Shown here: piece after piece, positions 32,556 through 59,310 of the stretch
How positions within the stretch are numbered: position 1 is the first letter of the stretch
Layout: the number at the start of each line of letters is the position of its first letter
Assembly (NCBI RefSeq): GCF_018390635.1
Contig: NZ_JAHBGE010000051.1
Span: forward strand, 124,001-188,000
Source of the DNA: Ancylobacter lacus
GTDB lineage: Bacteria; Pseudomonadota; Alphaproteobacteria; Rhizobiales; Xanthobacteraceae
DNA length: 64,000 nucleotides
Reading direction: 5' to 3'
Program-made: the position numbers and the translations under genes
The notes under the pieces: model-generated
The model's input: the letters and a program-made list of their open reading frames with translations, nothing else
The model's database searches: none
What the model was told of the DNA's origin: nothing

Positions 32556-32596
32556 GAACACAAAACGAACAGTTAGTGTTTGTTCGTGATTTGTTT
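32556..32596 (+). promoter_or_regulatory. LexA operators of lexA (one perfect, one near-perfect)
   Basis: GAAC-ACAAAAC-GAAC at 32556-32570 is an exact alphaproteobacterial SOS box (GTTC-N7-GTTC read on either strand). GTTC-GTGATTT-GTTT at 32582-32596 differs at one base. Both lie 38-78 bases before the lexA start, as expected for autorepression. A weak TTGAAG (32551) and TAGTGT (32574) pair with 17-base spacing brackets the first box. Confidence 0.88.
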
Positions 32597-32633: not shown

Positions 32634-33323
32634 ATGCTCACCCGCAAACAGCATGATCTGCTGCGCTTCATCCACGAGCGCCTGAAGGAAACGGGGGTTC
32701 CCCCCTCCTTCGAGGAGATGAAGGAGGCGCTGGACCTGCGCTCCAAATCCGGCATCCATCGGCTGATCACGGCACTGGAGGAGCGCGGCTTCATCCGCCG
32801 CCTGCCGAACCGCGCCCGCGCGCTGGAGGTGGTGAAGCTGCCGGAGAGCGTGCAGCCGGCGCGGCCGGCCCGCGCCTTCTCGCCCAACGTGATCGAAGGC
32901 AGCCTCGGCCGCCGCCCCGCCGGCGAGGAGGACATGGGTCGTCCCGTTCCGGTGCCGGTGATGGGCCGCATCGCGGCGGGCTCACCGATTTCCGCGATCC
33001 AGGCCCGCAGCCACACCGTCGCCATGCCGCCCGACATGCTGGGCAGCGGCGAGCACTACGCGCTGGAGGTGCGGGGCGATTCGATGATCGAGGCCGGCAT
33101 CCTCGACGGCGACCTCGCCCTCATCCGCAAATGCGAAAGCGCCGACACCGGCGAGATCGTGGTGGCGCTGATCGACGACGAGGAAGCCACGCTGAAGCGG
33201 CTGCGCAAGAAGGGCGCCTCGATTGCCCTCGAAGCGGCCAACCCTGCCTATGAGACGCGCATCTTCGGCCCCGACCGGGTGCGCATCCAGGGCCGGCTGG
33301 TCGGGCTGTTCCGCCGCTACTGA
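32634..33323 (+). CDS. lexA: LexA repressor
   Basis: 229 residues. The N-terminal winged helix lies at about 1-65 ([50 protein letters not shown]). The self-cleavage site is Ala115-Gly116 in GRIAAGSP, the catalytic Ser150 is in RGDSMIEAG and Lys188 is in EATLKRL. It represses the SOS regulon and is inactivated by RecA-stimulated autocleavage. Upstream operators at 32556-32596 show autoregulation. The last seven bases overlap the 3' end of comEC, which converges. Confidence 0.99.
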
Positions 33324-53478: not shown

Positions 53479-56916
<3,438 letters not shown>

Positions 56917-57025
56917 TCGCAAATTCTCCCTGCGGTTTCGCCGCGACTCGCGCGGCGCAGCCCTCAAGTGTCAGGGACAGGCCCCCGGCGCGTCCAGCCT
57001 CGACCCGGCGCGGTCCCCGCTATCC

Positions 57026-57124
57026 TCACACGCCGGCGAACACCCCGGCCCACATGCCGACCATGGCGAGGAAGAAGCCGATGGAGGCGAGCGCAGCGAC
57101 TTCGCGAAGAAAGATGCGGATCAT
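57026..57124 (-). CDS. 32-residue single-pass membrane microprotein under LexA control (SidA-like candidate)
   Basis: ATG 57124 to TGA 57026. The peptide begins MIRIFLREVAALASIGFF and ends GMWAGVFAGV: a short basic-amphipathic start, then one hydrophobic span of about 22 residues (9-30). AGGGGAGGA ends five bases before the ATG, one of the strongest ribosome-binding sites in the window. Two perfect SOS operators lie 17 and 64 bases upstream. Caulobacter SidA, a 29-residue LexA-regulated inner-membrane peptide that blocks division through FtsW/FtsN, has the same size, topology and control; homology is inferred, not shown. dnaE follows on the same strand. Too short for usual gene callers. Confidence 0.72.
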   Translation of the reverse strand: MIRIFLREVAALASIGFFLAMVGMWAGVFAGV

Positions 57125-57141
57125 CGGGTAGTCCTCCCCTG

Positions 57142-57156
57142 GAACATAGGGAGAAC
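57142..57156 (-). promoter_or_regulatory. LexA operator 1 of the microprotein gene
   Basis: GAAC-ATAGGGA-GAAC on the plus strand (GTTC-N7-GTTC on the minus strand), an exact alphaproteobacterial SOS box. A TTGACT (57183-57178) and CAGTGT (57160-57155) pair with 17-base spacing places the box over the -10/start region, where LexA would block transcription. Confidence 0.85.
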
Positions 57157-57188
57157 ACTGTTCCCGTTATGTACAGGAGTCAACCAAT

Positions 57189-57203
57189 GTTCCCCGTCCG
57201 TTC
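57189..57203 (-). promoter_or_regulatory. LexA operator 2 of the microprotein gene
   Basis: GTTC-CCCGTCC-GTTC, a second exact SOS box, 47 bases upstream of the first and just behind the candidate -35 element. It is 35 bases after the lolD stop. Two perfect copies in 62 bases make chance unlikely. Confidence 0.8.
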
Positions 57204-57238
57204 CGGGGTGTGGTTACCCGAGCGTGAATCCGATCAGT

Positions 57239-57931
57239 CTAATCCAATTCGACGATGAGGCCGTCCCGCAGCGTGACGCGGCGGTGCATCTGGGCGGCGA
57301 GATCGAGGTTGTGGGTGGCGATGATGGCGGAAAGGCCGGTCGCCTCCACCAGCTGCGACAGCGCACCGAACACATGGGCCGAGGTGCGCGGGTCGAGATT
57401 GCCGGTCGGCTCGTCCGCCAGCAGCACGCGCGGGGCGTTGGCGACCGCGCGGGCGATGGCGACGCGCTGCTGCTCGCCGCCGGAAAGCTCGCCCGGCCGA
57501 TGCTTCAGCCGCTGGCCGAGACCGAGATAGGTCAGAAGCTCGGCGGCCCGCCGGCTCGCTTCCTTCTTGCTCAGACCGCGGATCATCTGCGGCAGCATCA
57601 CATTCTCCGCGGCGGAGAATTCCGGCAGGAGATGGTGAAACTGGTAGACGAAGCCGATGTCGAGCCGGCGGATGCGGGTACGCTCGCTGTCGGGCAGCCC
57701 GGCGGTCGGCCGCTCGCCGAGATAGACCTCGCCGGCGTCCTGGTGCTCCAGCAGGCCGGCAATGTGCAGCAGGGTCGACTTGCCGGTGCCCGAGGGCGCC
57801 ACCAGCGCGACGGACTGCCCCTCATGCACCACGAGGTTCGCCCCCTGCAGGATGTCGAGCGTGCCGCTGCCCTGAGGATAGCGGCGTTCGAGAGCCTCAA
57901 GGCGCAGCGCGACATTGGCGGAATAGCTCAT
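57239..57931 (-). CDS. lolD: Lipoprotein-releasing ABC transporter ATP-binding protein
   Basis: 230 residues. Walker [10 protein letters not shown] (its first residue is Ala rather than Gly), Q-loop region [22 protein letters not shown], signature [14 protein letters not shown], Walker [14 protein letters not shown] and switch His in [10 protein letters not shown]. LolD powers extraction of outer-membrane lipoproteins by LolC/E. The ATG at 57931 lies five bases after the lolC stop; a GTG at 57940 overlapping that stop is an alternative. Confidence 0.95.
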
Positions 57932-57936
57932 CGGCC

Positions 57937-59310
57937 TCACTCGTAACGCAGCGCTTCCACCGGATCGAGGCGCGCGGCGCGCCAGGACGGGTAGAGCGGG
58001 GCGAGGAACGACAGCACCAGCGCCATCACCACCACCGAGAGCGTTTCCCCGGCATTCATCTCCGCCGGCAGGCGGCTGAGGTAATAGAGCTCCGGGGAGA
58101 ACAGCTCGGTCGCGGTCAGCCAGGAGATGAACTGGCGGATTTCCTCGATGTTGAGGCAGACGACGAGCCCGAGCAGGAAGCCGGCCAGCGTGCCGAACAC
58201 GCCGATCGAGGCGCCGGTGACGAGGAAGATGCGCATGATCGAGCCCCGCGTCGCCCCCATGGTGCGCAGGATGCCGATGTCGCGGCCCTTGTCCTTCACC
58301 AGCATGTTGAGGCCGGAGACGATGTTGAACGCCGCCACCACCACGATGAGCGTGAGGATGAGGAACATCACGTTGCGCTCGACCTGCAGCGCGTTGAAGA
58401 AGGTGGCGTTGCGCTGGCGCCAGTCGATCACGTAGATCGGCCGCTGCGCGGCCTTGTCGATCTCGGTCCGGTACTGCGCGATCTTGTCGGGATTGTCGGT
58501 GTAGACCTCGATGGCGGTGACGTCGCCATCCTTGTTGAAATAGGCCTGCGCTTCCGACAGCGGCATGAAGACGAAGGCACTGTCATATTCCGACATGCCG
58601 ATCTCGAACACCGCCGCGACCTTGTAGACCTTGATGCGCGGGGTGGTTCCCATCGGCGTCACCGCCCCGCGCGGGGCCACGAGGGTGATGTTGTCGCCGG
58701 CCCGCACCGAGAGCTGGTCGGCGAGCCGCTTGCCGATCGCGAGGCCCGCCCCGGTGTCGAATCCCTCCAGCGTGCCCATGCGGATATTGCTGCCGATCGA
58801 GGGCAGCGCCCGCAGGTCCGCCTCCGAGAGGCCCCGCACCAGAACGCCGCTCGCGCCATAGGCGGAGGAGGCCAGCGCCTGCCCTTCCACCAGCGGCACC
58901 GCGAGCTTGACGCCCGGCACGCCGGCGATGCGCTTGGCGACGGCGTCGTAGTCGGTCAGCGGGGTGTCGATGGGCTGCACCAGCATGTGGCCGTTCAGCC
59001 CGAGGATCTTGGAGAGCAGCTCGGTGCGGAAGCCGTTCATCACCGCCATGACGATGATCAGCGTCGCCACCCCCAGCATGATGCCGAGGAAGGAGAAGCC
59101 GGCGATAACGGAGATGAAGCCCTCCTTGCGGCGCGCCCGGAGGTAGCGCAGCGAGAGCATCCATTCATACGCGCTGAAGGCCCGCGTTCCGGTTGGCCCG
59201 CCGTCGGAGGCGGTGCTGGACGCCGGGCGCGACGTCTTCGGCGGACGCTCCCGTGCGGCGGGGGCAGACTCGGTGCCGGCGGGCACCGCGGTGTTGCTGT
59301 TTGCCGCCAT
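57937..59310 (-). CDS. lolC: Lipoprotein-releasing ABC transporter permease (LolC/LolE family)
   Basis: About 457 residues. After a disordered Ala/Pro/Ser-rich cytoplasmic lead (about 1-45) come [45 protein letters not shown] (first helix with the typical LolC/E start), a large MacB-type periplasmic domain (about 95-310) and three C-terminal helices, ending [19 protein letters not shown] single fused-function permease, as in most alphaproteobacteria, is likely. The ATG at 59310 has GGAGACTTCC upstream; an ATG at 59337 that overlaps the proS stop (ATGA) is the alternative. Confidence 0.95.

Follow-up and report, generated by a model that had tools for sequence, protein, structure and literature searches.

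The closest described system to the locus considered here is SidA of Caulobacter (NCBIfam model NF033228), an SOS-induced peptide published as 29 residues long (PMC4211646), which interacts with FtsW and FtsN. The filamentation of a Caulobacter lexA mutant is attributed to sidA in a study that also gives GTTC-N7-GTTC as the Caulobacter LexA motif and states that ~97% of SOS promoters in this organism have one box (PMC12700426). Helix TM7 of FtsW is the predicted binding site of SidA, at low confidence, in a 2026 paper that also places the action of YneA at FtsW (PMC13396833). SulA is described as not widely conserved outside gammaproteobacteria (PMC4211646) and leaves the question of how division is controlled at times of DNA damage unanswered in the order studied here. 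Our literature search did not find SidA described outside Caulobacter, and an earlier remark on its spread may stand in the 2011 SidA paper. SidA as a kind of protein is already known; what is new is how it is spread among Alphaproteobacteria.

Here we analyze a 32-codon frame directly upstream of dnaE in the window, that is, the whole 64 kb stretch of DNA under study. On three independent grounds, namely its place, its operator and its profile likeness, we consider it quite likely that the product of this frame is a divergent SidA orthologue that works as SidA does, inhibiting septation once induced by the SOS response.

Gene neighborhood of the small frame

The original prediction had placed a 32-codon, one-span frame upstream of dnaE, preceded by a strong Shine-Dalgarno site, and both are found in the sequence. 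The gene order is lolD, 32-codon frame, dnaE, all on the minus strand:

57239..57940, minus strand: lolD-like ABC ATPase, upstream neighbor (best family TIGR02211 LolD)
57132..57140, minus strand: Shine-Dalgarno site AGGGGAGGA, ending 7 nt 5' of the small-frame ATG
57026..57124, minus strand: SidA-like one-span peptide frame, 32 codons, coordinates with stop included (ATG at 57124, stop at 57026)
53479..56916, minus strand: dnaE, replicative DNA polymerase III alpha, downstream neighbor (NF004226, 1490.7 bits, cut-off 1002)

The encoded peptide, MIRIFLREVAALASIGFFLAMVGMWAGVFAGV, has 32 residues and a 17-residue hydropathy maximum of 2.04, indicating a single membrane span, and is thus similar to SidA (~29 residues) in both size and span. 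It has no match in NCBIfam or Pfam at E<=1. The lolD-like gene scores 238.1 bits against TIGR02211, under the model cut-off of 307.75. For dnaE, the start was taken as ATG 56916, the first ATG past the last upstream stop and ahead of the PHP domain, and TTG 56967 is an alternative, longer start. ATG 56916 sits 109 nt past the stop of the small frame, and no terminator-like site was found in these 109 nt (57025-56917). Consequently, one transcript may span both genes.

LexA-type boxes and promoter elements

The region 5' of the small frame carries two LexA-type boxes and promoter-like hexamers, and a third box lies before a lexA gene elsewhere in the window:

57189..57203, plus strand: distal LexA-type box GTTCCCCGTCCGTTC, putative operator, exact, starting 79 nt upstream of the ATG as read on the gene strand
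57178..57183, minus strand: -35-like TTGACT, 17 nt from the -10-like hexamer and between the two boxes
57155..57160, minus strand: weak -10-like CAGTGT, overlapping the proximal box
57142..57156, minus strand: proximal LexA-type box GTTCTCCCTATGTTC, putative operator, exact GTTC-N7-GTTC, starting 32 nt before the ATG
32556..32570, minus strand: third exact LexA-type box, 63 nt upstream of the ATG of lexA
32634..33323, plus strand: lexA, presumed repressor (TIGR00498, 183.2 bits, cut-off 110.95)

Both boxes of the pair were part of the original prediction and match the motif exactly. The promoter proposed with them stands in part: TTGACT and CAGTGT are present at a spacing of 17 nt, but CAGTGT is weak, agreeing with TATAAT at only 2/6 positions, and a promoter scan reported no site. 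Of the 28 relatives having the frame, 26 have a TTGA(C/T) element no more than 110 nt upstream of its ATG.

The bare number of boxes is unremarkable, since three exact GTTC-N7-GTTC boxes are observed in the 64 kb window where 1.0 is expected, and at least three occur in 7/100 shuffles. A pair within 62 nt, by an estimate from base composition, is expected ~0.0008 times per window. Within the genus, the distance from box to box is mostly 46 nt and the boxes flank the -35/-10 region, an arrangement that suggests tight double repression, fitting a harmful product. As with SidA, then, a GTTC-N7-GTTC box lies in the promoter region, identified here by sequence match to the published consensus. The presence of lexA in the window, with an exact box before its ATG, means that this genome has LexA and that its own gene bears such a box. 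By established alphaproteobacterial SOS biology, LexA would be expected to bind at the small frame and DNA damage to induce it.

Conservation of the frame in close relatives

A dnaE match was obtained in 59/61 genomes searched for the close-relative set, which comprised the dnaE upstream regions of the window genome and its 29 best-matching relatives (27 from the genus, 2 from the family). In 28 of these 30 loci, the frame is intact and starts with ATG; an SD-like site precedes it, and two or more exact boxes lie in the 130 nt before the start. Wherever relatives have the frame (28/28), they also have the SD-like site, exact boxes near the position of the proximal box, and an ATG located 28-45 nt past that box. 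One same-genus and one same-family genome (L253 and L272) lack both frame and boxes within 1300 nt; a moved sidA or a different SOS division inhibitor may exist elsewhere in these two genomes. The pattern set in advance as refuting the original prediction, a broken frame behind boxes that are kept, is absent from the 30 close loci, as both frameless loci are also boxless.

Across the 28 sequences, 27 of them distinct, dN is below dS in 372/372 defined pairs (5 undefined), the summed dN/dS is 0.21, and the variable columns at codon positions 1, 2 and 3 number 22, 12 and 29 of 32. The intact frame in 28/30 loci, the dN/dS relation in every defined pair and this codon-position pattern together remove the reading of a chance frame, and by these sequence comparisons the 32-codon frame is a real gene.

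Two other accounts of the locus center on dnaE rather than on the peptide. The boxes lie upstream of dnaE too, and could place the replicative polymerase under SOS control with the small frame as a passenger or a chance occurrence, a view made barely credible by codon-by-codon conservation with a dN/dS far below 1, by the joint loss of frame and boxes in 2/2 close cases, and by the 28-45 nt that separate box and ATG in 28/28 relatives. Alternatively, the frame could control dnaE in cis, as a leader peptide or an upstream frame, with a product that has no function; wherever read, it immediately precedes dnaE and shares its strand, and nothing resembling a terminator was found between the two. 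We regard this as very unlikely, given that the residues are under purifying selection (dN/dS 0.21), that the hydrophobic span is retained despite sequence drift, that the distance from the small-frame start to dnaE ranges from ~137 to 782 nt, and that the Caulobacter relative is known to act in trans as a protein (PMC4211646).

Likeness to Caulobacterales SidA

The window genome has no match to NF033228 (curated cut-off 35 bits) at E<=0.5, and the peptide is therefore not filed under that model. We judge the model to be narrow, because 62/149 genomes of one Caulobacterales family lack a match over the cut-off, as against 87/149 that have one. At E<=0.01, only Caulobacter vibrioides matched among 14 control genomes.

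The original prediction had named Caulobacter SidA as a parallel, and the likeness exceeds analogy because Caulobacterales SidA occupies the same place and aligns with the window peptide. In the best 30 Caulobacterales SidA loci, all from one family, dnaE lies just downstream on the same strand in 30/30 and lolD upstream in 22/30; relative to these 30 loci of one family, the window frame has the SidA position before dnaE. A box precedes the SidA frame in exact form in 21/30 of these loci and in exact or one-mismatch form in 30/30, the latter count carrying no chance rate. The SidA frames there are typically 29 residues long, and the aligned frames share M-I-R, R-E, A-L-x-S, F and M with the window peptide. 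In hhalign, a Caulobacterales profile (12 rows) and a profile of the order (18 rows) align end to end over 29 columns with a probability of 94.3% and an E-value of 9.9e-8, the rows having been picked by hand, a choice that favors a match. Against a 15-sequence Caulobacterales SidA profile, the window peptide scores 9.4 bits, a value matched by 40/20000 shuffles, and is the best of the 21 short hydrophobic frames in the window, the runner-up reaching 1.0 bits. When peptides of the order are scored with the Caulobacterales profile, only 25/74 do better than shuffled versions of themselves at p<=0.01. Many members of the order have thus drifted too far for a sequence link, and their assignment rests on place, box and size.

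TisB and DinQ of E. coli are SOS-controlled peptides that likewise combine a LexA-type box, ~30 residues and a single span, and the product could accordingly be an SOS-induced depolarizing or dormancy toxin acting elsewhere than at the divisome. Several observations render such a toxin unlikely. No Rfam antitoxin RNA matches 56850-57300 at E<=1, a search that novel antisense RNAs would escape. The ribosome site stands directly behind the promoter, whereas type I toxins have long regulated leaders. Finally, the peptide resembles SidA by profile and shares its locus.

Coupling of box and frame across the order and class

A search with the peptide alone over 199 genomes of the order, which we take to be Hyphomicrobiales, gave matches in 53/199 at E<=1. 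Among the best 30 loci, 26 adjoin dnaE and 24/26 of these have an exact box; the other four (L022 and L027-L029) are not beside dnaE and were discarded as chance matches.

A survey starting from dnaE, matched in 196/199 genomes of the order, covered 133 upstream regions, each no longer than 1100 nt. An exact box is present in 83/133, and in 75/83 of these boxed loci a hydrophobic frame of 25-60 residues starts no more than 130 nt past the box on the dnaE strand, leaving 8/83 with no short hydrophobic frame behind the box. Such a frame occurs in 4/83 on the opposite strand and at 169/2400 random positions in box-free loci; the latter control replaced random positions across all loci (512/2660), which were contaminated by true frames. 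With frame criteria fixed independently of the box, 131 loci (two short ones dropped) divide into 72 with box and frame, 10 with box only, 5 with frame only and 44 with neither (Fisher's p = 1.6e-19, a value that ignores the relatedness of the genomes). A box followed by an ATG frame of 28-60 residues is found in 74/133 loci, one of which (L351) is unlike the family. The start, frame and boxes upstream of dnaE, whose conservation was the check attached to the original prediction, are kept in the genus and in much of the order.

An exact box is absent from 50/133 loci. In 42 of these 50, a SidA-like frame is also absent by profile, so the gene is either missing from many relatives or located elsewhere in them. 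The remaining 8/50 have a SidA-like frame scoring >20 bits against a profile built from boxed loci, and a one-mismatch box is nearby in 7 of the 8. Separately, an E-L-x-S-V core replaces R/E-D-x-A-A-L in eight loci (L032, L035, L339, L342, L354, L370, L385 and L386), and the E-L-x-S-V peptides before dnaE in some families of the order are possibly a second type of inhibitor.

Over the class, NF033228 matched 103/385 genomes at E<=0.5. Because controls from E. coli, B. subtilis and archaea matched too, these were treated as noise, with the exception of the hit over the cut-off and two genomes that were checked (G429 and G250). Profile A2 matched 24/25 genomes in one other order and only 14/289 in an evenly drawn class sample at E<=0.01, several of which look like chance, and it also missed relatives recognizable by eye. 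From the class sample, 70/281 dnaE places were read, 40 of them picked by hand, mainly one per family label, with many small genomes skipped. Outside the order, 16 of 66 dnaE loci have an exact box, and under a looser hydropathy limit a short hydrophobic frame follows the box in 14/16, across nine family labels. At the same place upstream of dnaE in six loci of other orders (L122, L123, L126, L132, L133 and L139), a one-span frame with a quite different sequence lies behind LexA-type boxes; these frames may be either very divergent SidA or replacements. Among named loci, 14 from Paracoccus have neither a SidA-like frame nor an exact box before dnaE, and a clear SidA-like frame is seen in 8 of the 35 read. 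The distribution of the box-linked peptide is broad and patchy.

Proposed mode of action and wider meaning

As a SidA orthologue, the gene would be kept off by LexA bound at two operators that bracket and overlap the promoter. Upon DNA damage, LexA would be cleaved, and a short mRNA would be made and translated from the strong ribosome site. The peptide would then insert into the inner membrane through its one span, with the N-terminal end (R3, R7 and E8) inside, and bind the late divisome (FtsW/FtsN by analogy), halting septal wall synthesis until repair is done. The topology, the FtsW/FtsN target and the arrest of division are predicted purely by homology, and we place less confidence in the exact divisome partner than in SidA orthology and mode of action.

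A wider view, which we hold as possible rather than probable, is that SidA may be an ancient SOS division inhibitor of much of Alphaproteobacteria, fixed before dnaE, drifting fast in sequence and annotated almost only in Caulobacterales. With nothing obvious separating sidA from dnaE, one LexA promoter may serve both genes and may thereby halt division and at once raise the replicative polymerase.

An unannotated class of genes sits in plain sight before the universal gene dnaE. A peptide at a fixed and easily found place is a ready candidate in many genomes (74/133 loci with box and frame), the SOS division checkpoint becomes directly testable for a large part of the class, and natural variation among these peptides lets the rules of SidA action be read.

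Comparison with known systems

DidA of Caulobacter is, as predicted for the window peptide, a damage-induced one-span division inhibitor (PMC4211646), but it has 71 residues and a different sequence, is SOS-independent, is controlled by DriD rather than LexA, and acts through FtsN. YneA, SosA, ChiZ and DivS of Gram-positive bacteria are likewise small SOS-induced membrane inhibitors of division; they are larger, carry other domains (LysM in YneA and ChiZ), and no sequence relation to them is claimed. TisB and DinQ differ from the proposed inhibitor in being type I toxins under antisense RNA control that target membrane potential.

Against SidA itself, the window peptide shows differences of detail. 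It falls below the NCBIfam SidA cut-off, has 32 residues and bears a W at position 25 where SidA has F-V-W, and its frame has two exact operators bracketing the promoter, where the Caulobacterales loci read usually have one. The two have in common their size, the single span, a LexA-type box and the place before dnaE with lolD upstream, together with an R-E/D motif at the N-terminal end and, after it, A-L-x-S and F.
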